Assembly (NCBI GenBank): GCA_029820875.1 | Contig: JALGUK010000001.1 | Location: 1 to 50,180 of the forward strand | Reading direction: 5' to 3' | Source of the DNA: Candidatus Zipacnadia bacterium | GTDB taxonomy: Bacteria; Armatimonadota; UBA5377; JALGUK01 | DNA: 50,180 bases | Shown: piece after piece, positions 13,374 to 45,872 of the stretch | How positions within the stretch are numbered: position 1 is the stretch's first letter | Layout: each line of letters starts with the position of its first letter | Program-made: the position numbers and the translations under genes | Notes under the pieces: model-generated | What the model was told of the DNA's origin: nothing | Database searches by the model: none | What the model saw: only the letters and a program-made list of their open reading frames with translations

Positions 13374-13640
13374 TCAGCCTCCCTTCCGCAAAAGAAAAAC
13401 CAGGACGGTCACAAGACCGCCCAGAATGATGCCGAATATCCCCCACTGCAACCGCAGCCAGAGCCGGTTGCCCCTGATGAGCGCGCCGTACTCCGAGCAC
13501 GGCAGCTTGCCTATTGCGCCCCAGACACGGCTCATAGATTCGCGCAGTTCGTCAATGCTCTCGGCCACGCTTTCCAGCGTCGCCTCAGTGCGACCGTCGC
13601 GCAAGCCGCGCCGGTAGCTCTCGCCGTTTACCTTTGCCAC
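13374..13640 (-). CDS. XhlA-like membrane-anchored lysis accessory, 88 aa
   Basis: GTG start at 13640 shares its G with the stop of the upstream fusion gene (TAGTG). Amphipathic helical region (ESVAESIDELRESMSRVWGA) followed by a C-terminal span (WGIFGIILGGLVTVLVFLLR) and RKGG. Arrangement resembles hemolysin XhlA-type proteins that work with phage holins. Confidence 0.65.
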   Translation of the reverse strand: MAKVNGESYRRGLRDGRTEATLESVAESIDELRESMSRVWGAIGKLPCSEYGALIRGNRLWLRLQWGIFGIILGGLVTVLVFLLRKGG

Positions 13641-16249
13641 TATGCACCGTCCCTTCCTGGTAGTTTGATGACCCCGATTCCGAGATGGCTGACGCGGATG
13701 CGTGCCGGGTCGCCTGGCGCGGAGATCGTCCATACCTGATTGTCTCTGTTCGCACGGAGAGAGTCAAGCAATATGCCGGGCGACTTGTGGCCGGGACTGA
13801 AGATGTCGTGTAGAATTACGAATCCACCCGACCTGACAAGTGGTACGTAGTTTGTATAGTCCGTAAGCGGCTGCAACCCATCATGGTCGCCATCAATGTG
13901 GAGCACGTCAGCCAGTCCGCCTTCGGCCCACTTTCGGGCATCAAGCAGAGCATCATCAGACCGCTTGTTGACAAATCTCACAATATGGCCTCTGGCTGTC
14001 AACTCGTTTACGGCCCGCTCGAATACCGCTTTCTCCCGACTCATATAGGCGGCCTTGTCAGGCCGGGCGACATACCACTGGGGGGCCGGATGGGGGTCAA
14101 TCAGCAGTATTTCCATGCGTCTGTTTAGCGCGCCTGCCAGCGTCAGAATCCACGTCCCGTTGGCGCAACCGATTTCTATGACCCTACGTACCTGCTTGTC
14201 ACGCAGCAAGCCGACGAGTTGCGCGAATTCGGCGTGAAACTGTTGGAATTCGCCGCCGATATTTTCCGTTTGCTGCTTGCGCGATAGATACAGCGAGACC
14301 GCATCGCCGCTTTCCCACGCCGGAGAATTGAGGAGCGACAGGAGCTGGTCGGCTACGTATTCGGGCGAAAGCGCGACCATGCAGGGCCGTTGGTCCTGCT
14401 TCTCGTATCGGCATTTGTCGGCGCGCGGGTGATCCCAGCAAGGCGCACAATCGTATTCGTCCGCGCGGAGGATGCGGCAGTCTGTCGTCCAGGGCCGATT
14501 CTTGCGCTCGCTAGACGGCCCATATAGGGCGAGTACCGGCGTCCGCACCGCCGCCGCGAGATGTGAGAGCCCGTTGTCAATGCCGATGTAATACCGCGCC
14601 GCCCAGAGGATTCCAGCGGCCTGCGCGATGGTCGTCTTGCCGCACAGGTTCTCACCATACAAACTCATCCAGGGCTGGTCATCTTTCGCCGTGCCGAGGA
14701 AGACGAGCGGGACATCTGCCGCTTTCAACCGCTTGCAGCATTCCGCCCAGTGCGGCCAGCTCTTGGACACGAAGCCAGCACAGCCAATGCCGGCCACAAC
14801 ATAGCCTGTTGATAGGTTCGCGGATACCTGTGGCCATGTGGTCAGTTGACCGCTGGGCATCGGCCCCTTGTAGCCAACGGCTTTCGCTGCCCGGAAATTA
14901 CATTCAACCTCATGCTGCGTCCGCCACGCCCGGTCAACCTCAGCGACCCGTGATTCAATCGGCGTGAAGACCGGCCCCCGAGCCCAGTAGCTACCGGCGA
15001 CATAACGATAATAAGCCAAGTCGGGCTCATCCTTGACAACTTTGCGTACCCACGGCTGTAACTCCAACACTTCTTTCACGTCATCCGCCTGCTCCAGGCC
15101 GCGATCCCATACGTCAACCGGTTCGCCGCTGAGTTCAGAGAGAGCCTTGATAGTCGGTACACACATCAGCACGTTGCCCAGTCCGCCGCCGATGCAGTAG
15201 AGAGCGCGCTGCGCACCTTCGGCAACGTGCCAGTCTGCCGGGAACGGTCGCCTCAGAACCTCTGCGAAGAATTCTGCATCCGAACGCACCTTCCGTTCTG
15301 CAAACTCTCGATGCTGAGCCTCGGCTTCTGACTGGGCGAATATCTCCTCAGCCTTTCTGTCGCCATGCCAGCGTCGAAACCACGGTTGCCAGATGGCATT
15401 CCACGTCTTCTCATCGAACACGACTCGATGCGCATACATCCAGTTTGCCGTGCGATGCCCGTCGGGTATCTCATAGGGACTGAGGGCTTTGCCTTGCGGG
15501 TGATTCCACGAGCGGTATCGGTGGAGTACGCAGACATCCCGATAGACGTATATCGGCGTGTCGCTGAACCATGCCCTGAGCGAGATGCCGAGTTCCTGCG
15601 AACCCCACCAGCCGGGATAGCGGTTCCAGCCGCCGAGCCGGTCGAACGTCTCCCGCGAATAGGCGAAGCTCGAAGGGTTTACCGCCTGAGTCTGAGTCAA
15701 CGTTTCGCTCGGCCACTCGATTGTGTTATCGCAGAACAGGCCGACCTTGCGATGGTCGTGCCGGTCAAACGCGAGGATATGCCCTCCGCAGTATGAATTG
15801 TTCGGCACGCCCTCGGAATCGGCATAGTCGGGACATAATAGGTTGCAGGACTTTGTCCCGTGGCGTTTGCACTTGTCGCCGTGCTTGCAGCTCAGAGGGC
15901 CTACCGGCGGCGTAATGATGCAGGGCGAATGTTCAAGGCAGGCCCGTCCCCAGTCGGCCATAGTTCCCCGCGAAATGCGGTTGTGGGCGTCGAGATGCGC
16001 TATCACGTCCGCCCCGGGGTCAAGTGCGTGCTTCACGCCGACCGATTTCGCCTTCCCGATTCCTATTTTCTTTTCCGGCTTGAGCACGAGAACATCATCG
16101 CCGAGATTCTCGCAGCTTCCGTCGGTCGTGCCGTCGGCGACTACAACCACGTCGAGTTCGCAATCGCCCCTGTGCCTTCGGGCGGAGTCAATTGTCCACC
16201 CTACGTCCGGCCCCTCATTATAGGTATTCAGTACCAAGCACACCTTCAT
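13640..16249 (-). CDS. Trifunctional fusion: GT2 glycosyltransferase, GT9-like glycosyltransferase, SAM methyltransferase, 869 aa
   Basis: Start ATG after GGAGGGTGACGCAA. Residues 1-270 are a GT-A fold: CLVLNTYNEG, VVADGTTDGS and an HLDAHNR at 85-91 in the DxD position. Residues 345-640 are GT9-like (heptosyltransferase type): GGGLGNVLMCVP (354-365) and DNGLSHLAAA (558-567). Residues 680-869 are a class I methyltransferase (IEIGCANGT 691-699; LHIDGDHDG; ILHDIF) of the Methyltransf_24 kind. Together they would transfer two sugars and methylate a product, probably decorating the virion or altering host surface sugar; the substrate is unknown. Lies between tail genes and lysis genes. Confidence 0.85.
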   Translation of the reverse strand: MKVCLVLNTYNEGPDVGWTIDSARRHRGDCELDVVVVADGTTDGSCENLGDDVLVLKPEKKIGIGKAKSVGVKHALDPGADVIAHLDAHNRISRGTMADWGRACLEHSPCIITPPVGPLSCKHGDKCKRHGTKSCNLLCPDYADSEGVPNNSYCGGHILAFDRHDHRKVGLFCDNTIEWPSETLTQTQAVNPSSFAYSRETFDRLGGWNRYPGWWGSQELGISLRAWFSDTPIYVYRDVCVLHRYRSWNHPQGKALSPYEIPDGHRTANWMYAHRVVFDEKTWNAIWQPWFRRWHGDRKAEEIFAQSEAEAQHREFAERKVRSDAEFFAEVLRRPFPADWHVAEGAQRALYCIGGGLGNVLMCVPTIKALSELSGEPVDVWDRGLEQADDVKEVLELQPWVRKVVKDEPDLAYYRYVAGSYWARGPVFTPIESRVAEVDRAWRTQHEVECNFRAAKAVGYKGPMPSGQLTTWPQVSANLSTGYVVAGIGCAGFVSKSWPHWAECCKRLKAADVPLVFLGTAKDDQPWMSLYGENLCGKTTIAQAAGILWAARYYIGIDNGLSHLAAAVRTPVLALYGPSSERKNRPWTTDCRILRADEYDCAPCWDHPRADKCRYEKQDQRPCMVALSPEYVADQLLSLLNSPAWESGDAVSLYLSRKQQTENIGGEFQQFHAEFAQLVGLLRDKQVRRVIEIGCANGTWILTLAGALNRRMEILLIDPHPAPQWYVARPDKAAYMSREKAVFERAVNELTARGHIVRFVNKRSDDALLDARKWAEGGLADVLHIDGDHDGLQPLTDYTNYVPLVRSGGFVILHDIFSPGHKSPGILLDSLRANRDNQVWTISAPGDPARIRVSHLGIGVIKLPGRDGA

Positions 16250-16272
16250 TTGCGTCACCCTCCGTCTCTGAG

Positions 16273-16488
16273 TTATCTCGGCGCATACCATTCGCAATTC
16301 CGACACCGCGTATGCCAGACCTCCTGTCCCCGCTTCGCGCAGTCGAAAATTCGTATCTCGCCACAACAGGGTTTGTGTTCGACGCGCTTGACCGGCCCCT
16401 GATGAATACAGTGGAGTTCCCCGCCTGTCAGCCCTTCGGCGGCTGCCGCCCTCGCCGCCGCGTCTATGCGCCCTAAGAGATTGGTCAT
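16273..16488 (-). CDS. Cys/His-rich small protein, 71 aa
   Basis: Contains CIHQ, KPCCGEIRIFDC and HTRCRNCEWY, enough Cys and His for one or two zinc sites. N-terminal helix (LLGRIDAAARAAAAEGL). Coupled by ATGA to 16485-16889. Function unknown. Confidence 0.65.
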   Translation of the reverse strand: MTNLLGRIDAAARAAAAEGLTGGELHCIHQGPVKRVEHKPCCGEIRIFDCAKRGQEVWHTRCRNCEWYAPR

Positions 16489-16889
16489 TTCTCACCTCGT
16501 GTCTGTTCAGGCAAGACTCGCTGCGCGATCCCGCGTGCCCGCTTCCTGGGCATTCCCCGCCTGACTGCCTGAACGAGCGCATCCGCCGCAACATCCGTGC
16601 CTGCGCGGTTGCGTAGTATGCGCACTGAACCTTCAATATCGTCTCTCAGCCGCACCCGGCGTTCAGGCATGTCATCCCAATCCCAATGCAGCACGATGCG
16701 GTTTTTCAGCAGTTGGATTATGGACTCCGCAACTATGCGCGATTCGCCCGTCATCTTATGCCCCTGACACTGGCATTCCTCGCAGATACCGATATGCACC
16801 ACATGGACCCAGCCGACAACATCCGATATCAGGCGACATTTCACTAAATCATCACGGCCAATGAGGCTTTCGGCATACGGGCAGGTCAT
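16485..16889 (-). CDS. Hypothetical protein, 134 aa, Cys/His cluster
   Basis: Cys4, Cys18 and CEECQCQGH around residues 36-44 make a likely metal cluster; the rest is helical and basic (RRGMPRKRARGIAQRVL). Overlaps both neighbours by four bases. Not recognised. Confidence 0.6.
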   Translation of the reverse strand: MTCPYAESLIGRDDLVKCRLISDVVGWVHVVHIGICEECQCQGHKMTGESRIVAESIIQLLKNRIVLHWDWDDMPERRVRLRDDIEGSVRILRNRAGTDVAADALVQAVRRGMPRKRARGIAQRVLPEQTRGEK

Positions 16890-32385: not shown

Positions 32386-32960
32386 TACCTTTTCCCAAAC
32401 TCAATCATGCCGCAGATGTGGTCGTCATTTCCCGCCATGAAGGATACCTCGCCGAACTTTTCGAATGCCTTGCAGCAAGCTTTCTCATTATCCCAGCCCG
32501 CCAAATGCCCATCGTGAAAGCGGGCCGAATGCGTCGGTTGCCCGCGAGGTACACTGAACAGGCAGCGCCGTCGCGCGACTTTGCGAAGCTCAGCCACCAC
32601 GTCTGCGGGATTCTCAAAGTGTTCCAAGAACTGGAATGCCGCGACGGTCTCGAAGGCCCCATACCATACCGGGCTGAAGCTCGCCCCGTTTGCTACGAGG
32701 AAGATTCTCCGTGGGAAGCGGAGCCGTGCACGAGCCACCATGTATCGGCTGATGTCAACGCCCACATAGTGCATATCTTCGGGCAGGTATGGCGTGAACC
32801 CGCCAAAGGCCGAGCCGACCTCCAAGACCGGCCCAATGCAGTATTTGGCCGCTTCCTCGAATTCTGCTGCGCGGTCGCGCATGTCATTCCGTTCGGCATA
32901 TTTGCGGCCTCTCGCTTCCCAGAATTCGGGGCTATTCAGCATAGGCTTCTTATTATCCAT
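32385..32960 (-). CDS. Class I SAM methyltransferase, 191 aa
   Basis: VLEVGSAFGGFTPYL (motif I), VGVDISRYMVARARLRFP and FETVAAFQFLEHFENPADVV. Distinct from its neighbour at 31720-32385 in sequence, so two methylation steps are likely. Start chosen at MDNKKPMLNSPEF after GGAGAG. Confidence 0.85.
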   Translation of the reverse strand: MDNKKPMLNSPEFWEARGRKYAERNDMRDRAAEFEEAAKYCIGPVLEVGSAFGGFTPYLPEDMHYVGVDISRYMVARARLRFPRRIFLVANGASFSPVWYGAFETVAAFQFLEHFENPADVVAELRKVARRRCLFSVPRGQPTHSARFHDGHLAGWDNEKACCKAFEKFGEVSFMAGNDDHICGMIEFGKR

Positions 32961-34986
32961 GTGCTCTCTCCGCACTCGCCATAGCCCGCCTGACGATGTC
33001 GGGCAGCTTCCAGTTCACCTTGCAGATAATGCCGTCGCCGCAGTTGCCAAGTTTGCCGTCCCATTCATGCCATGCCGCCTTGCGACCAATCCGGCCAGGG
33101 TCGCGCCCGTCACGCTTCAGGTAGAACTCGTGCTTGATGGCCATGGACTCCTTGCTCAGGACGTGGCCGAAATGGTAGATTGCACAGCCGGGCACCCGTT
33201 CCGCCGTCTGCTTGTGTGCGTCCAGACCAGGGTTCAATCGCTGCTTCGCTGCATCCGTAGGCGTGTGGTGTTTCCAATACAAGTAGCTGGGCCTCCACCA
33301 ACTCCACCGATAATGCGGGCATACCGAACCATACGGCTCTAGGCTGACACCCCAGCGCTGGCCACGCAACTCCGGGCTATCGTGCACCCAGTAGCGTCCG
33401 TCGTGCCAGAAGTTCACCCAACGCGGACAGCCCCAGGCGATGCCGGAATCAAGCCACTTGTCGAGGCCGACCCACACTTCGTCGGCGTCAAGCATGAGCA
33501 CATAGTTGCCTTGCGTATGCCGTGCCGTCCAGTTTCTCATCTCACACTTATCTCGCCATTCCCGTCTCACTTCAAGCCTGATTTTATGCTTCGGGTCTGG
33601 GAATTTCTTAATCCGCTCAAGACTGCCGTCCGGCGGTGTACCTAGCATGAGCTTTGTCGGCCCATGGGCAATCACAATCTGGTCAACATAGGGATAGACC
33701 GATTCCAGCGACTGCGTGACCGTCGGGCCCCACCAGCAGATCATCTGCGCCGTGACGCTCTTTTTGGATACCGCGTGGTACGGGAGCGCTTCGACGCGCT
33801 TTCGCATCGCATCCAGCCCATAAGACTTCGTCGCCCACGCTTGCGCCTTTGCAACATCAGGTTTTCCTTTGGCAGCAATGCAGGACACCGCTCGCTTGTA
33901 AGCATCCTTGTCCCCCCACGAAACGTAAATCAGCCGGTCGCCGTAGTTCTGACGGAGCACCGGCAGGTCATAGACGATGCACGGAGTCCCGCTCGCAAGG
34001 GCCTCAGCCGGCACCATGCCGAAGCCCTCGAACAGGCTCGGCGCAAGCACCATGTGGGCATCCCGCATCAAGCCGAATTTGCTCGCGTCATTTTGGTCGG
34101 TGCAGATATGGCACTTGTGCTTGCTCGTATCTGCGGGCAGGTTATTGATGCGCCCGAATACCACCAGGTCGAATGGCTGCTTCAGGCTCCAAATAGCTGC
34201 AATGGCCGTCGCCCCGCCCTTGTACGCCTGCGAACGGGCGCTCCATACCGCATAGGGCCTCGCTATTGGGCGCGGTATCTTGAACCGTTCCAGCGCATAG
34301 GTGTTGACGGCAGGCGGCAGGACATAGACCGGATGTTCCTTCCCCATCCAGCGTTTCAGCCATTTGGCCGATTCACCGCTGTTCGCAAGCCACAAATCCG
34401 CCGCGTCATAGAGTGGCTTCCAGCCGGAACTTCCCATGTGTTTGCCCGCATCGGGGAGCGTCTGCCCGAGCCACTTCGAGTTCTCGAAATGCAGTAGGGC
34501 CAAAACTTGCCTAGGATGCTTTCGCTTCCAGTCCAATGCCGTCTTCGCAATGGCACCCTTCCCGTCCGTGACCGCCACATCAAGGTCTGGAGGAACCCCG
34601 TCCTGCCCTACAATCGCAAGCCGCAATGTCTTGAGCACGGGATAATCGGCCATCCACTTTGGCCGAGTGTTCGTTATCAGCCACACCTCGGCCCCCAGAC
34701 TGGCAAGCGAGTGCGCGTACTGATAGAGATGTATGCGCCCGCCGGAATAGAATGTGCTCGCGTGCATAAAGAAGCCGAAGCGTCTTGTCTTGGCGAAGCG
34801 CGCCACCGGTGCCGACGTTTTCTCGCGGCTCTGGAAGCTGTATTCCTTCTCGCCGATGATGCCATCGCGCAGAAGCCGTTCGGCCTCGTGTCGGTTCAGG
34901 ATGTCAATCAGTTGGCCGGCCCGCTTGAAGACCTTTTGCCTCCGCTGGCCGGTGAATTCATGTTCTTTCAGGACTCGGAACCACAT
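32953..34986 (-). CDS. Bifunctional glycosyltransferase, GT4-GT2 fusion, 677 aa
   Basis: Residues 1-50 form a short basic module (HEFTGQRRQKVFKRAGQLID) that may anchor to a virion partner. Residues 70-390 are a GT-B/GT4 enzyme: FFMHASTFYSGGRIHLYQYA, LANSGESAKWLKRWMG and the classic SLFEGFGMVPAEALASGTPC. Residues 420-677 are GT2-like with VLMLDADEVW. It likely adds two sugars in a row. First enzyme gene of the modification cluster after the capsid genes. Confidence 0.85.
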   Translation of the reverse strand: MWFRVLKEHEFTGQRRQKVFKRAGQLIDILNRHEAERLLRDGIIGEKEYSFQSREKTSAPVARFAKTRRFGFFMHASTFYSGGRIHLYQYAHSLASLGAEVWLITNTRPKWMADYPVLKTLRLAIVGQDGVPPDLDVAVTDGKGAIAKTALDWKRKHPRQVLALLHFENSKWLGQTLPDAGKHMGSSGWKPLYDAADLWLANSGESAKWLKRWMGKEHPVYVLPPAVNTYALERFKIPRPIARPYAVWSARSQAYKGGATAIAAIWSLKQPFDLVVFGRINNLPADTSKHKCHICTDQNDASKFGLMRDAHMVLAPSLFEGFGMVPAEALASGTPCIVYDLPVLRQNYGDRLIYVSWGDKDAYKRAVSCIAAKGKPDVAKAQAWATKSYGLDAMRKRVEALPYHAVSKKSVTAQMICWWGPTVTQSLESVYPYVDQIVIAHGPTKLMLGTPPDGSLERIKKFPDPKHKIRLEVRREWRDKCEMRNWTARHTQGNYVLMLDADEVWVGLDKWLDSGIAWGCPRWVNFWHDGRYWVHDSPELRGQRWGVSLEPYGSVCPHYRWSWWRPSYLYWKHHTPTDAAKQRLNPGLDAHKQTAERVPGCAIYHFGHVLSKESMAIKHEFYLKRDGRDPGRIGRKAAWHEWDGKLGNCGDGIICKVNWKLPDIVRRAMASAERAHG

Positions 34987-37102: not shown

Positions 37103-38836
37103 TTACCCCTCTTCGAGGCCGAGGGCTTTCCGGTGCTTCTGGAGATGCCCCTTCACCGCTGCGCTCGCCTCCTCGCCAGAGCGTGCTCCCTGAGCCGCCG
37201 CCCAGGCCGCATTCAGTCCGCCCTTGTGGAGGTAGAGCGTGCCCGTCGTGAAGCGTCCACTGTCATCAGGGCTTCCTCCGCCCTTGACCCAGTGATGTGG
37301 ATACCGCCACGTACTCACGCTCTCCGGCTTTCCCATATCGGCGAAAGCCAGTCGCGGGAGCTTGGCCTTGTCCACCTTGCCCCAGGCCGGTTCCCCTTCG
37401 GCCACTTTGCTGTTGTGTGAAAATGATTTTGCATCCAGCGCCAGACGTTCCAGCGCCAGCCGATGCCTCTTGACCTGGATGCCCCATGAGTGAAGTGCGG
37501 TCCGCCCCTCGGCAGATGCCTTCGGCTCCGTCTCCTTCAAGAGGCTTTCGAGCTCGTCAGAGAGTTTGCGTAAGCTCTCCAATGTGCTCTGTACCCGGCT
37601 TCGGTTTCGCGCCGAGAGAACGCGGCCTTCCTTCCCCTCCGACTCGCAAGGTGCGTTCACGTCCCGTCGCAACGCCTCCGCCGCTTCCGTCGCGGCCTTC
37701 GCCGCCGTAATCGTTGCCAATTCGTTCGCCGGTATCGTCGTAACGGTCACCTCAAGCAGCATGATCTCCAGCAAGTCCCGCACACTCTTCCCGCCTTCCT
37801 CGGTGTCCGTCCATTTCTTGGGGATGTAGCCGATACTCAGGCCATTGACGTGCCCCTCCACGATCTTCTGTCGCGTCTCCTGGGCTATGGGCGTGGCCGA
37901 GAATTCCGCGTGAATCCAGAGGCCAAAATCATCTTCCTTCGCCTCGGTCACTGTGCCAATAACTTCAAGGGTGTCGCCCCCGTGCGCATAGTGCCGCACC
38001 ATTAATTTGACCTTGCCCGCCGGGACGCGCTCCTTGATCGTCTTTTTGAATGCGCCCGGCTTGATGCGTTCCCCCTGCCCGTCCACGTTACCGAAGGCCG
38101 CACCATGTCCCTCCATCCAGCCAGCATCCCCCTCGTCCTTCTTGCCCTCGGCTACGTCCGCCAACGGCGCAACTTTCAGGTCGGGCTTCGGCGACGGCTT
38201 CTCAAGTCGCACATGTGTGTCAAGCTCCTTTCCCGGCTGGCCTGGCCCCGGTCTCTCAGCCCGCCGCATCTGGCCGCCGCACTTCGGGCATTTGATATTT
38301 GCACAGTGCTCGTCAGTTTTGAGCTTATGCCCGCATTCAATGCACTCGCAGTTATACTTTCTTTCGCCTTCGGACTCATCATCAGCCTTGCCCTTTTTGG
38401 CCGCCTCAAACGTGCCGTCATGTGCCTTGCAATGTGACCGCGCCTCCTCTACATCCCACGTTCCCTTCGGATAGCGGTAAGCCTGTTCGCTCATGGTTGT
38501 TTCGCCCTTGAGCTTCCCGATGATCACGTCATATTCCTTGCCGTCGTGCTTGCGACTTACGCGCCGGAAGGTCTCTTTCTGGAAATCCCCGGGCGGGCGC
38601 AGACGACAGGCGTGCTCATTCGGGTAGGGCTTGCCCTGAATGACCTGGAGCGCCTTGTCCAGAACCTCTTGTTCGCCCTCTGAGAGGCTCTTGCCCATGA
38701 CCGTGCGCCACTGGATATAGCACGCAGCGGAGCGCGCCTCGCGGTCAACGTACTTGGCGGCCATTCCTTCGTCTTCCATGCAGCGGGCGATGAATTCCCT
38801 CTGCGTCTCGTCCTCGTTCGGTTTCAGCTTTGCCAT
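37103..38836 (-). CDS. Prohead maturation protease with extra domains, 577 aa
   Basis: Residues 220-400 match HK97-type prohead proteases: EGHGAAFGNVDGQGERIKPG, catalytic His in VRHYAHGGDTL and Ser in NGLSIGYIPKK, then LEVTVTTIPAN. N-terminal 1-200 is an additional region with a four-Cys ribbon (CECIEC; CPKCGG). The C-terminal segment repeats an AW/H pattern (WRYPHHWVKGGG) like the N-terminal YRYPKGTWD stretch, and ends with a KGHLQKHRKALGL helix. Much longer than the usual ~200-residue protease, so it may combine protease and scaffold or other function. Confidence 0.85.
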   Translation of the reverse strand: MAKLKPNEDETQREFIARCMEDEGMAAKYVDREARSAACYIQWRTVMGKSLSEGEQEVLDKALQVIQGKPYPNEHACRLRPPGDFQKETFRRVSRKHDGKEYDVIIGKLKGETTMSEQAYRYPKGTWDVEEARSHCKAHDGTFEAAKKGKADDESEGERKYNCECIECGHKLKTDEHCANIKCPKCGGQMRRAERPGPGQPGKELDTHVRLEKPSPKPDLKVAPLADVAEGKKDEGDAGWMEGHGAAFGNVDGQGERIKPGAFKKTIKERVPAGKVKLMVRHYAHGGDTLEVIGTVTEAKEDDFGLWIHAEFSATPIAQETRQKIVEGHVNGLSIGYIPKKWTDTEEGGKSVRDLLEIMLLEVTVTTIPANELATITAAKAATEAAEALRRDVNAPCESEGKEGRVLSARNRSRVQSTLESLRKLSDELESLLKETEPKASAEGRTALHSWGIQVKRHRLALERLALDAKSFSHNSKVAEGEPAWGKVDKAKLPRLAFADMGKPESVSTWRYPHHWVKGGGSPDDSGRFTTGTLYLHKGGLNAAWAAAQGARSGEEASAAVKGHLQKHRKALGLEEG

Positions 38837-38848
38837 TTCTCTGTCCCC

Positions 38849-41800
38849 TTAGATTGAAGCGAGCAATGTGCATCGGCAGTTGCTTGACACCACCCCGTTG
38901 GCAATGTATAATGATGGTATTGTTTGGAGGTCGTAAACATGACCACGAAAGTTTCGGCGTCTTGTGAACGTGACGTTTGTCGGCAGTATCTCTCCGGCAT
39001 ATCCGCTCAAAAGCTCGCGGAATTCACGGGCATCAACCTTGCGACTGTGTTTAGAATCCTTCACAGAAATGCCATCAAGCCCAATCAGAGAATACTGCTC
39101 TTGGACACGAGCGATATTGTCCGGCGCTATGTCGCCGGGGAATCTGAATTGGCGCTTTCCCGCTCGTTTCACGTTTCCAGAACAGCCATTCGCCGCCGAC
39201 TTCTTGCTGCTAATATCACTCCGCGAAGTGGAAGCGACGCCAACAAAATCAGAATGCAAAAGCTCTCTCCGGCTGAACGCCTCAGCCTCACGTCTGCCGC
39301 CCATGATGCTATCCGCAACCGCCCCCAATCTGAGGAGCATCGTTGCAAAATCGCGTTCACCAGGGAGAGGAAGCAACTCGGCATAGCTCCCGCTGAAACC
39401 CGTCTCGCCATTGCTCTTGCGGGTCGGGGTTTGACCGTGACTGCGCAAAAAGCTATCGGTCGCTATAACGTTGACCTTGCCATTGAGGAAGGTTCCGTCG
39501 CCGTGGAAATATTCGGGGGTCATTGGCACACGACCGGTCGTCATGCCCTTGGATGCCGCAAGCGCCTTGACTACATCATCAATGCGGGTTGGGTGCCCGT
39601 TATTATTTGGGTGACTCCCGATTATCCTCTCGAAGCTGGGGCAGTAAATTACTTGGTCTCCCTCTCGAAGGCTCTTAGCCTTGGCAAAGCCCCAAGGGGT
39701 CAAGAGCATGTGATTCGGGGTGACGGTAAGCCGACCGGAATCGGCAAAACCAAGCTCAATTACCGGGCCGTTGTAGGGGGCGACAAAACCGGCAAGCTTA
39801 CCAGGGGCCAGGATGGCCGTTTCACCAGCGACGCAGTTGGGATGTAACGGCGGATGTTCCACGTCAAACGGTATGTCCATGTGGCCGCCGGTCAATTCCG
39901 TGTATCCGTCCACTTCTGTCTCCCCCTCAAGCCGCGTCCCCGCCGCGACAAACCGGTCGTTTATCGGTATCTCCATTCCGTCAAACGCTGAGCAGTAGTC
40001 GCAGTTGTGAACGAGGATACCATTCGCATAGAAGCACGCCGCATCCTCAACTTTGATGTCAAATACGGTTGCTTTGCCTTGCCACAGATGATATAATGCC
40101 CGAAGTCCTGTCAGGAGTATAGAGCCATGTATCATCTTACCTGTGAGTATTGCGGCAAGGCATTTGAGCGCCCTTCGCATCCAGTTGGTGCACACACATA
40201 TTGTAGTACTCGCTGTTATCATGCCGCGACGAAGAAAGCTCCGACTTTGACTTGCCAGATATGCGGCGCGAAATTTATCGTACCTACATCCACCGCCAAT
40301 CGGGGACGACGCTTCTGTTCTCGTGCCTGTTATCTGCGAAGCACAGCCAACAAGGTACTGAAGGTCTGCGCCGTTTGTGGCAAGACTTTTGCTATCAACG
40401 CCAGCATTGCCGAGCGATATACCGTTTGTAGTTGGAAGTGCCGGGCACATGTTCGGCGAACTCAAATCTGTGTCCGCTGTGGTAAATCGTTTATTACCAA
40501 CAGACCAAAGGGGAAGTATTGTTCCGAAGCATGTTATCGGCCCCCCCACCTTTTTACCTGCCTCACATGCGGCAAGAAGTTTCGGAGGCAACCCACGAGT
40601 AATCGCCGATTTTGTTCTATTGCCTGTTACCGACGCTATCAGGGCGAAACTAGAATCGAAAAGATTGTCCGCAAAGCCCTGGAGGCTGCGCACATTTCGT
40701 TTAATCAAGAACGTCAGGTCGGACGTTACTCGATTGATTTTGCGCTTCCAAAAGGCAAGATTGCGCTGGAGGTAGATGGTAAATATTGGCACCAAGATAT
40801 GCGCCGCGACGCCCGCAAAACGCGCTATCTTCAGAAGCGGGGATGGACGGTCATTAGGATTACCGAAGACCAAATCAACAACAGTCACAACATGGTCGCC
40901 CTTGTTATCGGGATTTTGAATAACATCCCCGGTTTTCAGATTACCCGCCTTGACCCACCCGCGTGACTTCTCGTATATTCGATGATTCGCCGTGCATAGG
41001 AGCATCCCGTTCTCACAGCACACCAATGACAGCGGCCCATCTGTGGCTCGTTGGCTCTTCGCCATGACTCTTCGCAGACCTTCCGGCGTACACACGAGGT
41101 CGCCTGGTTCAATATCCTTGATTGCCACAGTTCCGTCAGCACTAAGTACCCTGCTATACCCATCCAAACACAACGCATCGTCGTCCGTTACCAGCCAACT
41201 TACCGTCCCAACGCCCTCATCGGCATAAAGCTGCTTCGCGCCCTCGTTGTAGCTCCATATCGTGGTTGTACGGGTTATCAGTTCCGCACGAGTCTTGCTT
41301 CGCGCAAGCCCCTGTGAGAGCAGTTGCTTTTGCATATCACGCGGCGTTAGGCCCTCTGCCGCCCCCCGCCTGACAATCCGCTCTATCTCGCGTGCGCTTG
41401 TCTCCGTCTCCCATTTCGAAGTCATCGCCACCCAATCACCGACCGGCGTATGGAGCCGCTGCGCGAGATACGCCTCATGCCCGAACGCCGTCTCAAGCTC
41501 GCCGATTGAAATCGGCGGGGTCGGCGGCTCAGCATCCAGTATGATTTCGTCCTTCGCCATCATCTCGCGTATCGCAGCCCCCTTGCCGAATTCCACCTCG
41601 GCCAGGTGGTAGCCGTCCATTGTCATGGCGAGCATCAGCGGCAGCTTCACCGCCGCCAGCGATTTCGCCCATTTCGGCGCGAGTTCGGCGGCCCACTTCT
41701 GCCGCCCCTCGCCCACGGCCTTTGCCGCTTCCTTGACGTGTGCAGCCAGCTCTCTCCGCATCGCCTGCCGCATCTTCGGCAGCCAGCCGTCGGATATTGC

Positions 41801-41854
41801 TGCCCGCCTTATGGCGACGGCGGGGTTACTTCTCCGTTTGGCCATCAGCGGCAT
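38849..41854 (-). CDS. MuF-like minor head protein interrupted by two inteins (1001 aa precursor, ~293 aa spliced)
   Basis: The spliced parts (residues 1-228, 618-673, 993-1001) form a Mu gpF/SPP1 gp7-like head morphogenesis protein: helical region, RAELITRTTTIWSYNEGAKQ, DDDAL-CDYCSAFDGMEI and PPLHPN-CRCTL, the last being the conserved HPNCRC motif. Intein 1 (residues 229-617) splits the protein before CDYC; intein 2 (674-992) splits HPN-CRC. Start set at ATG 41854; ATG 41845 and TTG 41860 are alternatives with no clear ribosome site. The portal gene is just upstream, as usual. Without splicing the four Cys of the C-terminal motif could not come together. Confidence 0.9.
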   Translation of the reverse strand: MPLMAKRRSNPAVAIRRAAISDGWLPKMRQAMRRELAAHVKEAAKAVGEGRQKWAAELAPKWAKSLAAVKLPLMLAMTMDGYHLAEVEFGKGAAIREMMAKDEIILDAEPPTPPISIGELETAFGHEAYLAQRLHTPVGDWVAMTSKWETETSAREIERIVRRGAAEGLTPRDMQKQLLSQGLARSKTRAELITRTTTIWSYNEGAKQLYADEGVGTVSWLVTDDDALCLDGYSRVLSADGTVAIKDIEPGDLVCTPEGLRRVMAKSQRATDGPLSLVCCENGMLLCTANHRIYEKSRGWVKAGNLKTGDVIQNPDNKGDHVVTVVDLVFGNPNDRPSPLLKIARFAGVAAHILVPIFTIYLQRNLAFWKRKINRVTSDLTFLIKRNVRSLQGFADNLFDSSFALIASVTGNRTKSAITRGLPPKLLAACEAGKKVGGPITCFGTILPLWSVGNKRFTTADTDLSSPNMCPALPTTNGISLGNAGVDSKSLATNGADLQYLVGCASQITGTRTEASSPIGGGCRYDKFRAAYLASQSRSFLRRGMITASTTICVCTNWMRRALKCLAAILTGKMIHGSILLTGLRALYHLWQGKATVFDIKVEDAACFYANGILVHNCDYCSAFDGMEIPINDRFVAAGTRLEGETEVDGYTELTGGHMDIPFDVEHPPLHPNCVAGETAILAPGKLAGFVAPYNGPVIELGFADSGRLTVTPNHMLLTPWGFAKAKSLREGDQVIYCPSFERIIGSHPNNNGHPTRIDDVVKALAASKGMTTGRVPMTPEYFHGDGTFLNGKVNVIATDSFLRSHGQTPTRKSNGETGFSGSYAELLPLPGERDFATMLLRLGAVADSIMGGRREAEAFSRRELLHSDFVGVASTSRSDISSKKSAANGCSGNVKRAGKRQFRFPGDIAPDNIARVQEQYSLIGLDGISVKDSKHSRKVDAREFRELLSGYAGEILPTNVTFTRRRNFRGHVYDLQTIPSLYIANGVVSSNCRCTLLASI
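38879..39835 (-). mobile_element. Intein 2 in the MuF-like protein (319 residues)
   Basis: N-terminal block: CVAGETAILAPGKLAGFV starts at Cys and continues to TPNHMLLTPWGF (TxxH motif) and LREGDQVI. C-terminal block: GHVYDLQTIPSLYIANGVV followed by SSN, then Cys+1 of the extein. Penultimate residue is Ser instead of the usual His, a known variant. The splicing domain uses about 110 residues at the two ends; the middle 210 residues are the antisense of the + strand nuclease gene at 38939-39847. Confidence 0.9.
38884..38912 (+). promoter_or_regulatory. Perfect consensus sigma70 promoter inside intein 2
   Basis: TTGACA (38884-38889), 17-base spacer, TATAAT (38907-38912) on the + strand, followed by GGAGG (38926-38930) and ATG 38939. 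It lies inside the codons for the intein's C-terminal catalytic motif (SLYIANGVVSS) on the other strand, only 5 bases from the intein edge. Confidence 0.85.
38939..39847 (+). CDS. Antisense homing endonuclease, HTH-NUMOD3-like-EDxHD type, 302 aa
   Basis: Runs opposite to intein 2. ATG 38939 is eight bases after GGAGG; a TTG at 38924 is not needed. Two HTH-like units (residues 16-45: LSGISAQKLAEFTGINLATV; 60-92: IVRRYVAGESELALSRSFHV) bind DNA. RNRPQSEEHRCKIAFTRERK (127-146) resembles NUMOD3. Vsr-like nuclease: E153, D179 in YNVDLAI, E190 in VAVEIFGGHWH, H197, then GCRKRLDYIINAGWVPVIIW. Phe192 replaces the Asp of the EVDG variant. The last ~60 residues are only antisense of the intein's N-terminal block. 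Stop TAA (39845-39847) lies 10 bases past the intein edge in the extein. Confidence 0.85.
   Translation: MTTKVSASCERDVCRQYLSGISAQKLAEFTGINLATVFRILHRNAIKPNQRILLLDTSDIVRRYVAGESELALSRSFHVSRTAIRRRLLAANITPRSGSDANKIRMQKLSPAERLSLTSAAHDAIRNRPQSEEHRCKIAFTRERKQLGIAPAETRLAIALAGRGLTVTAQKAIGRYNVDLAIEEGSVAVEIFGGHWHTTGRHALGCRKRLDYIINAGWVPVIIWVTPDYPLEAGAVNYLVSLSKALSLGKAPRGQEHVIRGDGKPTGIGKTKLNYRAVVGGDKTGKLTRGQDGRFTSDAVGM
40069..40097 (+). promoter_or_regulatory. Extended -10 promoter inside intein 1
   Basis: TTGCTT (40069-40074), 17-base spacer, TATAAT (40092-40097) with TG one base upstream (TGATATAAT). AGGAG at 40113-40117 is nine bases before the ATG at 40127. The whole leader is inside the intein. Confidence 0.75.
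40127..40966 (+). CDS. Antisense homing endonuclease with five zinc fingers and EDxHD nuclease, 279 aa
   Basis: Opposite to intein 1 in exact codon register. Five CxxC...CxxxC fingers: Cys 6,9,26,30; 43,46,64,68; 81,84,101,105; 115,118,132,136; 145,148,163,167. Each has the same GK/GAKF core after the first pair. The nuclease follows: ETRIEKIVRKALE (E174/E178), YSIDFALP (D204), LEVDGKYWHQD (E215, D217, H222), then RDARKTRYLQKRGWTVIRI, the Vsr/DUF559-like signature. The fingers would read the target site and the nuclease cut it, as expected of a homing enzyme for the MuF gene. Fully contained in the intein. Confidence 0.9.
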   Translation: MYHLTCEYCGKAFERPSHPVGAHTYCSTRCYHAATKKAPTLTCQICGAKFIVPTSTANRGRRFCSRACYLRSTANKVLKVCAVCGKTFAINASIAERYTVCSWKCRAHVRRTQICVRCGKSFITNRPKGKYCSEACYRPPHLFTCLTCGKKFRRQPTSNRRFCSIACYRRYQGETRIEKIVRKALEAAHISFNQERQVGRYSIDFALPKGKIALEVDGKYWHQDMRRDARKTRYLQKRGWTVIRITEDQINNSHNMVALVIGILNNIPGFQITRLDPPA

Positions 41855-41890
41855 ATTCAACTTTTAGAGCCAATCCAATTAGCCAAATGC

Positions 41891-43159
41891 CTATTCTTCC
41901 GGCTCCTCTGCCGGCTTGCTCCGCACGGGCTGCTCCACAATATTGATTGGCAGCAGGTACACGTCCCCGTCATCCACAGCCTCCAGTCCGGCCATGTCAC
42001 GCGCCTCGTTGCGCGTTATCGCCCCGCCCCTGAGCAGTTCCGCCGCCCGCTTCGCCCGCTGGTTCACGTCCTCCTGAAGCTCCGGTATGTCATCCAGCTT
42101 GAAGCGTATCTCAAGGCGCTCCTCGCCCTCGTTACGGAACAGGCCCCGCGTCAGCGTCCCCGCCAACGCCGCCCATAGTGGCCTCAGCGTCTCGGTGTAG
42201 AACGATTTGCGGGCCGTGGCGTAGTTCGAATACGTCGCGCTTTCGATGCCCACACGGACGCCCACGAGGATCGGCGGCACGGCGAATGCCGCGCAGATAC
42301 GCGACTCCGACAAGGCCGCGAATCCAGGCCAGTCCATGTCTTTCAGGATGCCGGGGAATTCGATTGAGACGCCGGGTGGCAGGATCGGCGTTCCGCCCCG
42401 TTTCCCCTTGCCCGCGATGTCGTGCAACGACTGCCGCAAATCAGCCTTCTGCCGCTCGCTCAAGGGGGCATTCCCAGGCTCTCGCTTCAGCGTAAGGCCG
42501 GGCACCTTGAGGTTCGTGAGCATTTCAACGAGATAATTCTCCCGTTCACAGTCAAGCTGATAGTCATGCAATGCGGCCTGAAGCGGCCCCACGCCGTCAT
42601 AGACGCTGGATGGGTCTATGAACCGCGCATAGAACATGTCTTCCGTCTCGACCTTGCGGACTTGATGCCTATCCTGGATCACCTCGTAATAGTCAATCAG
42701 CTTGCCGCCCGTGCCGCCGGTCTTGACCGAGACCCAGCTTGTCGGAACCGGCCAAAGCTCTGCGAGTTCACCGGCCCGCGTCCGCCATTTCCAGATGAAC
42801 GATTTCCCGGCCAGCAGTAGCCGAGAGACCCATTCCTGCATCAGGCTGTTGTAGTCCCCGAATTCGTTAGGGCTATTCAGCAGGTCGGCTATCGGATGCG
42901 CCGGTGCGGCTTCCCAACCGTCCGGCGTCTGTAGCCCGACCTCGACACCCGCATCCGCGATTGATGTCGCAATCTCCTGCACGCAGGCGCGGATGACCGC
43001 GTGGTTCCTGTACGCCTTTTCCCTTTCGGCGGTCGAGTAGCTCTCCCAGATATTGTCGCTGACAATCCACGGGATGCCCGCGAGGACTTCCCAGCCGCTC
43101 GCATTGACGCCAGTGTCCTGCGCCTTGCCGCCCCATAGCCGCTTCAGCCAGCCCCTCAC
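41891..43159 (-). CDS. Portal protein, HK97 type, 422 aa
   Basis: GTG start at 43159 overlaps the TerL stop (GTGA). Portal signatures: AVIRACVQEIATSIADAGVE, PIADLLNSPNEFGDYNSLMQ, VSRLLLAGKSFIWKWR, GPLQAALHDYQLDCEREN and ALSESRICAAFAVPPILVGV. It forms the dodecameric DNA gate at one capsid vertex and binds TerL and the connector. Confidence 0.95.
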   Translation of the reverse strand: MRGWLKRLWGGKAQDTGVNASGWEVLAGIPWIVSDNIWESYSTAEREKAYRNHAVIRACVQEIATSIADAGVEVGLQTPDGWEAAPAHPIADLLNSPNEFGDYNSLMQEWVSRLLLAGKSFIWKWRTRAGELAELWPVPTSWVSVKTGGTGGKLIDYYEVIQDRHQVRKVETEDMFYARFIDPSSVYDGVGPLQAALHDYQLDCERENYLVEMLTNLKVPGLTLKREPGNAPLSERQKADLRQSLHDIAGKGKRGGTPILPPGVSIEFPGILKDMDWPGFAALSESRICAAFAVPPILVGVRVGIESATYSNYATARKSFYTETLRPLWAALAGTLTRGLFRNEGEERLEIRFKLDDIPELQEDVNQRAKRAAELLRGGAITRNEARDMAGLEAVDDGDVYLLPINIVEQPVRSKPAEEPEE

Positions 43160-44773: not shown

Positions 44774-45227
44774 TTGGCATCACCTTGCCCGATTCGGTCT
44801 TTGCCTTTTTGCGCATCAGATTGATATTGTGCTTTCGGCCCATATTGCGCTCAATAACCTCGTATCCCAAATGCTCGTAAAATGCGGTTGGATCGCCAGT
44901 GCTTTGGTCTGCCTTACTGCGAATGTAGCTCGGTCGAAGATGTGCAACGAGATTACTGCCGATATGGCGTCCGCGATAATGAGGATGCACAAGCAGATTC
45001 CAGAGCCCGCGTCTCTTTTGATTTCCGAGCGTGGCCCACGCCACGAGGCGTTCAGCGTCAAACACCACCCAAGTTTCGTCATTCTGCATCTTGTCCACAA
45101 GATAAGCGCGTCTGACCAACCAATCCTTGCGGAGATAGATGTCCACGAACGCAAGAATCTTGGGAATATCATCTTGTGTCGCCCGACGAAATGTCAGTCC
45201 GTCTTTCTCAAAAGCCGAAGCAGACAA
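44766..45227 (-). CDS. GNAT-like N-acetyltransferase, 153 aa
   Basis: LTFRRATQDDIPKILAFVDI opens a GNAT fold; LVAWATLGNQKRRGLWNLLV, HPHYRGRHIGSNLVAHL is the acetyl-CoA loop and PTAFYEHLGYEVIERNMG ends it. TTG start six bases after GGAGGGAGAC fits best. Sits between the ParB-like gene and TerS, a position where phages often keep small modification genes. Confidence 0.75.
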   Translation of the reverse strand: MSASAFEKDGLTFRRATQDDIPKILAFVDIYLRKDWLVRRAYLVDKMQNDETWVVFDAERLVAWATLGNQKRRGLWNLLVHPHYRGRHIGSNLVAHLRPSYIRSKADQSTGDPTAFYEHLGYEVIERNMGRKHNINLMRKKAKTESGKVMPNE

Positions 45228-45805
45228 GTCTCCCTCCAACCCAGATCAAGTGTTTCGCCTGCATCTTCGCGCTCTGTGTGCAGTCGCTCCTGAACATAGG
45301 CCGCATCGTCCTTGGTAAACTTGAACATGAGAGTGTAGGAATCCATCTCAATCTCACGCGAAGTCACATCCACAGAATCAAGCGTCATGCTCAATCTATC
45401 CAGTCTCAGATTTTGCGACAGGTCAGGAAGGTCGGTCTTGATCTCATCAAGCACCGTCTTGAGCTCGGGCGTGAACTCCCCGACAATCTCCGGGCTGTTG
45501 GCCGCTACGTTGGCCGCCTTCTCGGTTGCATCATCCCAGTCCACGACGCGAATCGGCCAGCGGTCGCCGTTCGGACAGACGACCGAATGGTTGTCTAGCT
45601 TCAGCCGGTCGCCCCATTGACTGCGCAGTGCCTTCATGCGCTGATGCCCGGTCACGAGATGGCCGCTGCGCGAATTCCAAGTCAGGCCCGAAATGTCCCC
45701 GAAATGCCCGACGGAATGCTTCAGGGCCGTGAACGCCTCCGGCGAAATCTCGCGCGGGTTGTACGGCGAGGGCTTCAAATCCTCTATGCTCGTAAGTTCA
45801 CTCAC
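45194..45805 (-). CDS. ParB/Srx-domain protein, 203 aa
   Basis: SELTSIEDLKPSPYNPREIS and HLVTGHQRMKALRSQWGDRL make a ParB N-terminal (ParB/Srx) fold with the GHxR signature (box II of ParB nucleotide binding). The C-terminal third lacks a ParB HTH and is acidic/helical (DELDAYVQERLHTE-like). GTG start after GGGGGAAG. Such proteins sit near phage terminases; CTP/ATP-dependent DNA binding or nuclease activity is possible. Overlaps the GNAT gene. Confidence 0.75.
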   Translation of the reverse strand: MSELTSIEDLKPSPYNPREISPEAFTALKHSVGHFGDISGLTWNSRSGHLVTGHQRMKALRSQWGDRLKLDNHSVVCPNGDRWPIRVVDWDDATEKAANVAANSPEIVGEFTPELKTVLDEIKTDLPDLSQNLRLDRLSMTLDSVDVTSREIEMDSYTLMFKFTKDDAAYVQERLHTEREDAGETLDLGWRETCLLRLLRKTD

Positions 45806-45872
45806 CCATCTTCCCCCGGCAGCCCGTCCCATTCGCTCCTTCTTCGACCCCTATGAAACTCCTTCGCCCTTA

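Follow-up and report, generated by a model that had tools for sequence, protein, structure and literature searches.

Conserved nuclease genes in antisense codon register within contiguous inteins of phage MuF-like genes

The window analyzed here, a stretch of 50,180 bases from contig JALGUK010000001.1 of a Candidatus Zipacnadia bacterium, is one entire IMG/VR record and contains a gene for a MuF-like head morphogenesis protein that includes two inteins. Opposite each intein, on the other DNA strand, is a predicted nuclease gene whose codons pair one on one with those of the intein, an arrangement referred to here as antisense codon register. Nuclease genes nested in this way are genuine: they occur within contiguous inteins, are conserved, and evolve under selection in the nuclease frame. 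Judging from the sequences, it is highly probable that each intein is a two-strand element in which a splicing intein and an antisense homing nuclease in codon register are mobile as one unit.

Two inteins and the nuclease genes opposite them

The open reading frame (ORF) for the MuF-like protein is continuous rather than split into separate genes (Table 1), and is flanked by genes for the portal protein and the prohead protease; its match to PF04233 is weak and falls below the cut-off. Both inteins have the signature residues that define class 1, namely an N-terminal cysteine, the block B TxxH motif, a C-terminal asparagine and a nucleophile at position +1 (C, TANH and HN/C in intein 1), and C1, H42 and N319 of intein 2 are invariant among 40 intein-2 sequences. 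Intein 1, which also matches TIGR01443 (intein C-terminal region) above the cut-off, is assigned to the Hint class by profile only, and intein 2 is assigned by its predicted fold as well. When intein 2 is modeled with AlphaFold2 in its own frame, a Hint fold is predicted with confidence at residues 1-71 and about 270-319, and Foldseek matches the model to the Mtu RecA intein (probability 1.00). A canonical endonuclease-containing intein was rejected since profile searches with the sense MuF/intein protein found no nuclease family in its own frame and the middle of intein 2 is mostly unstructured. A group I or group II intron was rejected as well, as Rfam gave no match at E ≤ 1 in 38700-41900.

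Table 1. Positions of the MuF-like gene, its inteins, and the antisense nuclease genes with their predicted expression signals
Feature	Positions	Strand	Basis or remark
MuF-like head morphogenesis ORF, 1003 amino acids (aa), two inteins inside	38849-41860	-	ORF list; phrog_2468/241, head morphogenesis
Intein 1, 389 aa, residues 231-619; C1...TANH...FYANGILVHN / C	40004-41170	-	PF14890, 4.7e-12
MuF extein separating intein 1 from intein 2	39836-40003	-	ORF and intein coordinates
Intein 2, 319 aa, residues 676-994; C1...TPNH...HVYDLQT...SSN / C	38879-39835	-	Motifs, Hint fold
Intein 2 residues 76-128, VP..E.FHGDG segment	39452-39610	-	Confident fold and constraint in own frame
Nuclease 1, 279 aa; CxxC...CxxxC ribbons x5 and DUF559/Vsr-like catalytic domain	40127-40966	+	Antisense in intein 1
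Nuclease 2, 302 aa; helix-turn-helix region and Vsr/DUF559-like catalytic domain	38939-39847	+	Antisense to intein 2
Predicted promoter of nuclease 1, TTGCTT-N17-TATAAT, weak -35	40069-40097	+	Inside intein 1; read off sequence
Shine-Dalgarno sequence AGGAG of nuclease 1, 9 nucleotides (nt) ahead of ATG 40127	40113-40117	+	Read off sequence
Predicted promoter of nuclease 2, TTGACA-N17-TATAAT (12/12)	38884-38912	+	Antisense to S-L-Y-I-A-N-G-V-V-S intein motif
Shine-Dalgarno sequence GGAGG of nuclease 2	38926-38930	+	Antisense to D-L-Q of VYDLQT

Nuclease 1 is situated between the splicing blocks of intein 1, and nuclease 2 spans almost all of intein 2, splicing blocks included. These positions agree with the initial annotation, an earlier reading of the window alone that had placed the first gene wholly within intein 1 and the second within intein 2 plus 12 bases. 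Its observation that codon pairs with codon, and that both overlaps are free of TTA, CTA and TCA (which are stop codons when read from the opposite strand), holds in both inteins. The accompanying notion that the nuclease lies opposite the intein middle only does not fit intein 2, where the Hint splicing domain is overlapped as well.

Nuclease 1 matches the profiles DUF559 (2.4e-13) and MTES_1575 (4.1e-10) and the homing endonuclease I-Bth0305I (PDB 3r3p; 5.1e-6), and its five ribbons were read off the sequence. MTES_1575 is matched at E ≤ 0.01 by 23 of the 26 members of the nuclease 2 family, the profile of which matches PDB 3hrl (2.4e-6). The putative catalytic residues of nuclease 2 (E153, D179, E190 and H197) are invariant in 26 sequences. 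The AlphaFold model of nuclease 2 has a predicted local distance difference test (pLDDT) score of 83, with a disordered tail (residues 268-302) that lies opposite the N-terminal splicing block of intein 2. Foldseek places this model closest to Vsr (1vsr) and I-Bth0305I (3r3p), with a probability of 1.00, followed by 2lvs, a Cbp1-type helix-turn-helix protein. The two nucleases share 29% identity over 137 residues, and their catalytic domains are distantly related.

Depletion of antisense stop codons

With the codon usage of the window, the probability that its intein 2 has no antisense stop is ~0.007 when conditioned on the intein residues and ~0.008 when conditioned on those of the nuclease. 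A single locus is therefore only suggestive, and relatives were sought by nuclease homology alone. The first search yielded 70 IMG/VR loci, 58 of them distinct, which together with the window gave 59 sequences; four were dropped from the statistics, three because of contig ends (L015, L028 and L063) and one in which the sense frame closes early (L048). The depletion of TTA, CTA and TCA proposed in the initial annotation was then counted against codon use elsewhere: in the remaining 55 inteins, 353 antisense stops are expected from local codon usage and 1 is seen. This sole stop is in L064, whose nuclease is shortened to 176 aa. In the mirror direction, 261 sense stops are expected from the nuclease residues of the same inteins and 0 are seen.

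A trivial explanation would be that the antisense ORFs are a by-product of GC-rich inteins that avoid TTA, CTA and TCA, the similarity in the mirror frame being simply inherited. GC-rich genes often have antisense ORFs in codon register, and the window alone gives only the modest probabilities cited above. Even so, this explanation is extremely improbable. The GC content of the 55 inteins ranges from 0.36 to 0.66, and the AT-rich members thus carry most of the weight. For seven of the 8 members with a GC content of 0.36-0.45, the expectation is 6.5-22 antisense stops and not one is observed; the expected numbers are 21.6 in L031, 22.1 in L026 and 16.3 in L065, with none seen in any of these AT-rich inteins. 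TTA, CTA and TCA codons are in use right outside the overlap. The by-product explanation also conflicts with the selection acting on the two frames (see below), with the nuclease domains, fold and invariant residues, and with the existence of free-standing homologues. Antisense ORFs arising by chance were ruled out by the count of 353 versus 1, by the 112 of 113 loci described next, and by the polarity of selection.

In a wider set, 112 of 113 distinct nuclease-2 loci lack an antisense stop within the nuclease match as delimited with hidden Markov models. By source, these are 89 of 89 IMG/VR loci (22,239 codons), 15 of 16 cultured phages, and 8 of 8 GTDB contigs. The set combines the loci found by nuclease homology with the cultured-phage stretches that were opened, merged by sequence and without L001-L008 and L079-L082; the viral search that fed it covered the best 80 of 223 stretches, and 17 of the 123 cultured-phage records found were opened. 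The initial annotation had pointed to metagenomes as a source of further inteins with opposite-strand DUF559/Vsr-like ORFs, and 89 of the loci counted here come from IMG/VR. In Salmonella phage SE1 a stop precedes the predicted nuclease start, and the overlap is without antisense stops.

The sense frame is open across the nuclease match in 112 of the 113 loci. It passes both splice ends in the window, and the same is true of 54 of its 58 distinct relatives; the other four are three that are cut by contig ends and L048. In L048 the sense frame closes ahead of the C-terminal splice motif, and this locus is possibly a decayed intein that has retained its nuclease. These counts bear on the idea that the loci follow the logic of fractured genes and split inteins, with halves that splice in trans, or that they represent an inactive host gene with an accidentally open frame. 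Related EDxHD nucleases are reportedly found in fractured genes, placed between the two halves of a split intein. Such a scheme is very improbable given that the sense frame crosses both splice ends in nearly all of the sequences, that none of the 261 expected sense stops occurs, and that the layout is present in MuF genes of cultured, replicating phages.

Relatives of nuclease 1, reached through proteins P0002-P0004, are antisense in register in at least 15 viral loci, with identities to nuclease 1 of 36-51% save for L203 (30% over 63 codons only). Three of the intein-1 type loci (L193, L267 and L285) are near-identical. In the 16 rows counted for this type, which include the window and the three near-identical loci, there are 3 antisense stops in 4085 overlap codons versus 147 in 7376 extein codons. 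All 3 are at most 7 codons away from the point at which the matches end on the C-terminal side, and there the nuclease would terminate in any case. The initial search had returned six relatives of nuclease 1, consisting of L003 (50% identity), which was examined for nesting, and L004-L008, which are partial matches of 26-34%. In addition, 52 cultured records match nuclease 1. In mycobacteriophages H41-H57 the nuclease-1 relatives match across or beside DNA methylase genes; a DNA methylase gene is also the host of the published ShiLan-type insertions.

Selection in the two frames

Selection was compared in 11 non-independent pairs of cultured phages (3 Gordonia and 8 Salmonella/Shigella pairs) by means of w, a simple count in which transitions were weighted double and multiple changes were not corrected for. 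The pairs exclude Fosterous, which differs in length, and SE1 was used for the stop count only. Within the overlap, the nuclease frame gives w of 0.12-0.38 and the intein frame 0.56-1.55. Within the exteins, w is 0.05-0.31 in the sense frame and above 1 in the antisense frame. Purifying selection in these phages thus acts on the nuclease reading of the overlap, with the intein reading closer to neutrality, and this polarity is inverted in the exteins. At larger distances, fourfold degenerate sites of the intein frame are conserved at 79-84%, versus 27-28% expected.

Permutations that keep the nuclease protein reveal intein-frame constraint at both splicing ends and also in the stretch that follows block B (P..IE.V...VP..E.FHGDG); the middle of the intein shows no such constraint (means of 0.10 to -0.04 in successive scanning intervals). 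The reverse permutation reveals nuclease-frame constraint in every interval except the first and last 20 columns, including the part opposite TPNH. The ends of the intein are thus dual-coded, while the middle belongs to the nuclease. The initial annotation had also considered the case of a decayed nuclease opposite an intein middle that is selected in its own frame; this was tested, and the reverse holds.

The claim that the intein middle has no domain of its own stands in part. In intein 2 it applies to residues ~129-266, which read as an unstructured, near-neutral by-product apart from one predicted helix (pLDDT is <50 for residues 129-159 and 179-266 of the model, with one better helix in between). 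It does not apply to residues ~76-128, which have a fold and constraint of their own. The VP..E.FHGDG segment in this region is exactly opposite VEIFGGHWH, the most conserved motif of nuclease 2.

Free-standing relatives

A natural control is available in free-standing sister nucleases, and both nuclease families carry antisense stops when outside an intein. Acinetobacter phage P1068 has a free-standing relative of nuclease 2 (L088:1821-2714(+)) with 10 antisense stops in 214 codons, and this gene is directly downstream of, and convergent with, a MuF gene that lacks an intein. The IMG/VR relative of nuclease 1 in L003 (L003:3842-4726(+)) is likewise free-standing and has 10 antisense stops in a frame of 295 codons, 9 of which are past the likely start (274 codons). 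Its position matches that in P1068: it follows a MuF gene without an intein, immediately downstream and in convergent orientation. The free-standing relatives adjoining MuF suggest a likely origin for the nested genes, in which a nuclease gene that adjoined its target was taken up by an intein located there. The free-standing nuclease of P1068 is annotated, whereas all 16 cultured stretches opened that have a nested nuclease lack an annotation for it.

Predicted expression signals

The predicted start signals of nuclease 2 coincide with splicing motifs of intein 2 (Table 1), and its start codon (ATG 38939) is antisense to the histidine of GHVYDLQT. The promoter of nuclease 1 was not listed by the promoter scan, as its -35 element misses the threshold. 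A perfect 12/12 promoter occurs in 14 of the 35 inteins that do not end in HN, versus 0.015 expected from synonymous resampling, and a Shine-Dalgarno sequence and ATG are enriched in the same 35 inteins to a level that 0 of 1000 null sets reach. In the 20 inteins that end in HN, the -10 element, the Shine-Dalgarno sequence and the ATG are enriched. Relatives of intein 1 have TATAAT-like and TTGAC-like words at similar places, as judged by eye without statistics.

Mobility, alleles and a third nuclease type

One MuF site in Gordonia phages is empty in Bibwit and holds an exact insertion of 316 aa in Vivi2, an intein of 275 aa in Thing3, Lennon and Barsten, and another 275-aa intein in Kewpiedoll. 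The MuF exteins of Vivi2 and Thing3 have residue identities to Bibwit of 98.8% and 98.3%, respectively. Phage LSPA1 has a 272-aa insertion that is absent from ER10. An intein was reported as present in Snoke and LSPA1 and absent in K1ind2 (PMC6776784), and the accessible portion of that article mentions no antisense gene for it. Comparison of LSPA1 with PST-H1 gives 13 changes in the 247 codons of the overlap and 221 in 302 extein codons, the intein thus being far less diverged than the exteins, as expected from recent intein transfer. Empty alleles, together with one intein that has diverged much less than its host gene, indicate mobility, and it may be inferred that the nuclease mediates homing of the intein.

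Thing3-type inteins have an antisense ORF in codon register that covers 236 of the 275 codons (L290:1188-1895(-), and also L291 and L293, which are Lennon and Barsten). This ORF matches phrog_5046 (3.6e-15), labeled HNH endonuclease in PHROGs, and I-MsoI (6.1e-4), and contains a presumed LAGLIDADG motif. A search for homologous proteins returned none, and Pfam gave no nuclease match. The ORF looks like a third, LAGLIDADG-like nuclease in codon register.

Alternatively, the nuclease could be real and have another role in the phage, such as exclusion of competitors, packaging, or antisense control of MuF, and merely be stored beneath the intein. Nucleases that adjoin their target gene can exclude competitors, and the free-standing relatives do adjoin MuF genes without an intein. 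This alternative is nevertheless improbable because the nuclease and the intein are co-extensive: in 51 of 54 nuclease-2 relatives the nuclease start is 60-81 nt inward from one end of the intein (exactly 60 in 31), and in 50 of these 51 its stop is -72 to +30 nt from the opposite intein end. Homing of the intein and nuclease as one unit would likewise account for the empty alleles, which are exact, and for the intein that has diverged far less than the exteins around it.

Elsewhere in the window, matches on the minus strand at 13640-16636, 32953-34986 and 45194-45832 (DNA methyltransferase-like, glycosyltransferase-like and ParB-like, respectively) are ordinary phage cargo.

A model for a two-strand homing element

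In the proposed mechanism the intein is predicted to splice out of MuF and so keep MuF functional, splicing being assumed since MuF would otherwise be broken. The nuclease would be made from the antisense strand by way of its own predicted promoter and ribosome site, and its expression would probably be independent of, and precede, late transcription of MuF and the capsid genes. The nuclease likely cuts intein-free MuF alleles of co-infecting phages at the insertion site, and repair of the cut MuF would copy in the whole element. No amino acid makes a stop on the opposite strand unavoidable when two genes are in codon register, whereas 5 and 6 dipeptides do so in the other antisense phases, in each of which nucleases 1 and 2 would meet 3-4 forced stops. 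The likely reason for the use of codon register is that, alone among the antisense phases, it has no residue or dipeptide that dictates such a stop, so both genes can stay open by synonymous changes alone.

A broader reading, which appears probable though less firmly so than the two-strand element itself, is that these are widespread "overprinted" homing inteins: MuF inteins would repeatedly have taken in antisense nucleases of at least two unrelated superfamilies, in the phase that never forces a stop and with start signals in the splicing motifs. The types concerned are Vsr/DUF559 with zinc ribbons, Vsr/DUF559 with a helix-turn-helix, and LAGLIDADG-like.

Several observations weigh against the two-strand element or limit how far it extends. 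Nuclease 2 itself matches MTES_1575 at 5e-5, which is under Pfam's own cut-off, and its Foldseek E-values exceed 0.001 (6.7e-3 for Vsr). Fourfold degenerate sites of the nuclease frame are conserved at 37-43% versus 27-28% expected, so the intein residues are not wholly free, and intein columns from about 52 to 132 show an intein-frame excess of 0.3-0.7. The -35 element of the HN-ending inteins is near chance (7.30 versus 6.96 matches, a value reached by 18 of 1000 null sets). Three of the 54 nuclease-2 relatives have no start codon in the searched range. A simple C-terminal splice pattern is present in 102 of the 113 loci, and both block B and C-terminal patterns are present in 97, the misses including contig ends and sites beyond the reach of the simple pattern. 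Searching by a conserved nuclease motif also under-samples decayed nucleases and nuclease-free inteins; none of the loci examined combines an intact intein with a nuclease that is clearly decayed, the nuclease of L064 being a shortened one.

These loci would be among the most clear-cut examples in nature of a single stretch of DNA whose two strands encode conserved proteins that are unrelated to each other, and they widen the concept of an intein in that the nuclease need not belong to the intein protein. If the broader reading is true, overprinted inteins uncouple early nuclease expression from a late capsid gene, and the selfish element and its splicing cover are one inseparable stretch of DNA. 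Annotation of one gene per locus hid these elements, which are labeled, for example, "head morphogenesis" in cultured phages. Their presence in cultured phages makes splicing, cleavage and homing directly testable.

Comparison with known systems

The nuclease of an intein is usually encoded in frame. Canonical mobile inteins resemble the elements described here in their Hint splicing blocks, a conserved site in the host protein, empty and occupied alleles, and predicted homing. They differ in that their nuclease is a domain of the same polypeptide, whereas here it is a separate gene on the opposite strand of the same DNA with its own predicted signals. Dassa is said to have described, in 2009, "fractured genes" from environmental phage data in which EDxHD nucleases lie between split intein halves. 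Fractured genes share with the present loci the fold class of the nuclease (the catalytic domain of I-Bth0305I, PDB 3r3p), phage hosts, and a tie to inteins. Unlike in fractured genes, the intein and host ORF are contiguous here, with the nuclease encoded by the very same base pairs on the opposite strand.

The initial annotation had regarded the arrangement as undescribed. No antisense nuclease within an intein was found in the literature searched, which had most subscription papers and bioRxiv outside its coverage, but the arrangement is not unique to the window, as it occurs at more than 100 phage and bacterial loci. The ShiLan element is an out-of-frame HNH nuclease in a phage methylase gene, encoded in the third frame of the transcript, and the accessible part of its description states that splicing domain and ribosome binding site are both undetectable (PMC11855218). 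As far as that text describes it, the ShiLan element and the present ones alike are insertions that leave the host ORF open and have a nuclease encoded in a different frame; here, in contrast, the nuclease is on the opposite strand, in codon register with a Hint intein, and has a predicted promoter and Shine-Dalgarno sequence. A ShiLan-type out-of-frame insertion was ruled out for the window by the opposite strand and the Hint domain. In its accessible part the same paper cites, for overlapping frames, a preprint by Gosselin, Arsenault and Gogarten on actinobacteriophage inteins of "non-canonical architecture" (PMC11855218). That 2025 preprint may overlap with the present finding, and could include the Gordonia MuF inteins and anticipate part of it.

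The closest parallel for the antisense orientation comes from group I introns of nuclear ribosomal DNA (rDNA), which carry antisense homing endonuclease genes for which expression and cleavage have been reported, according to the accessible part of the source (PMC9548176). On that account, both systems have an antisense nuclease gene within a self-splicing mobile element. The introns differ in residing in rDNA and in being removed as RNA, and Rfam finds no intron at the MuF-like gene. Because the rDNA intron is removed as RNA, its bases need not code for a second protein.

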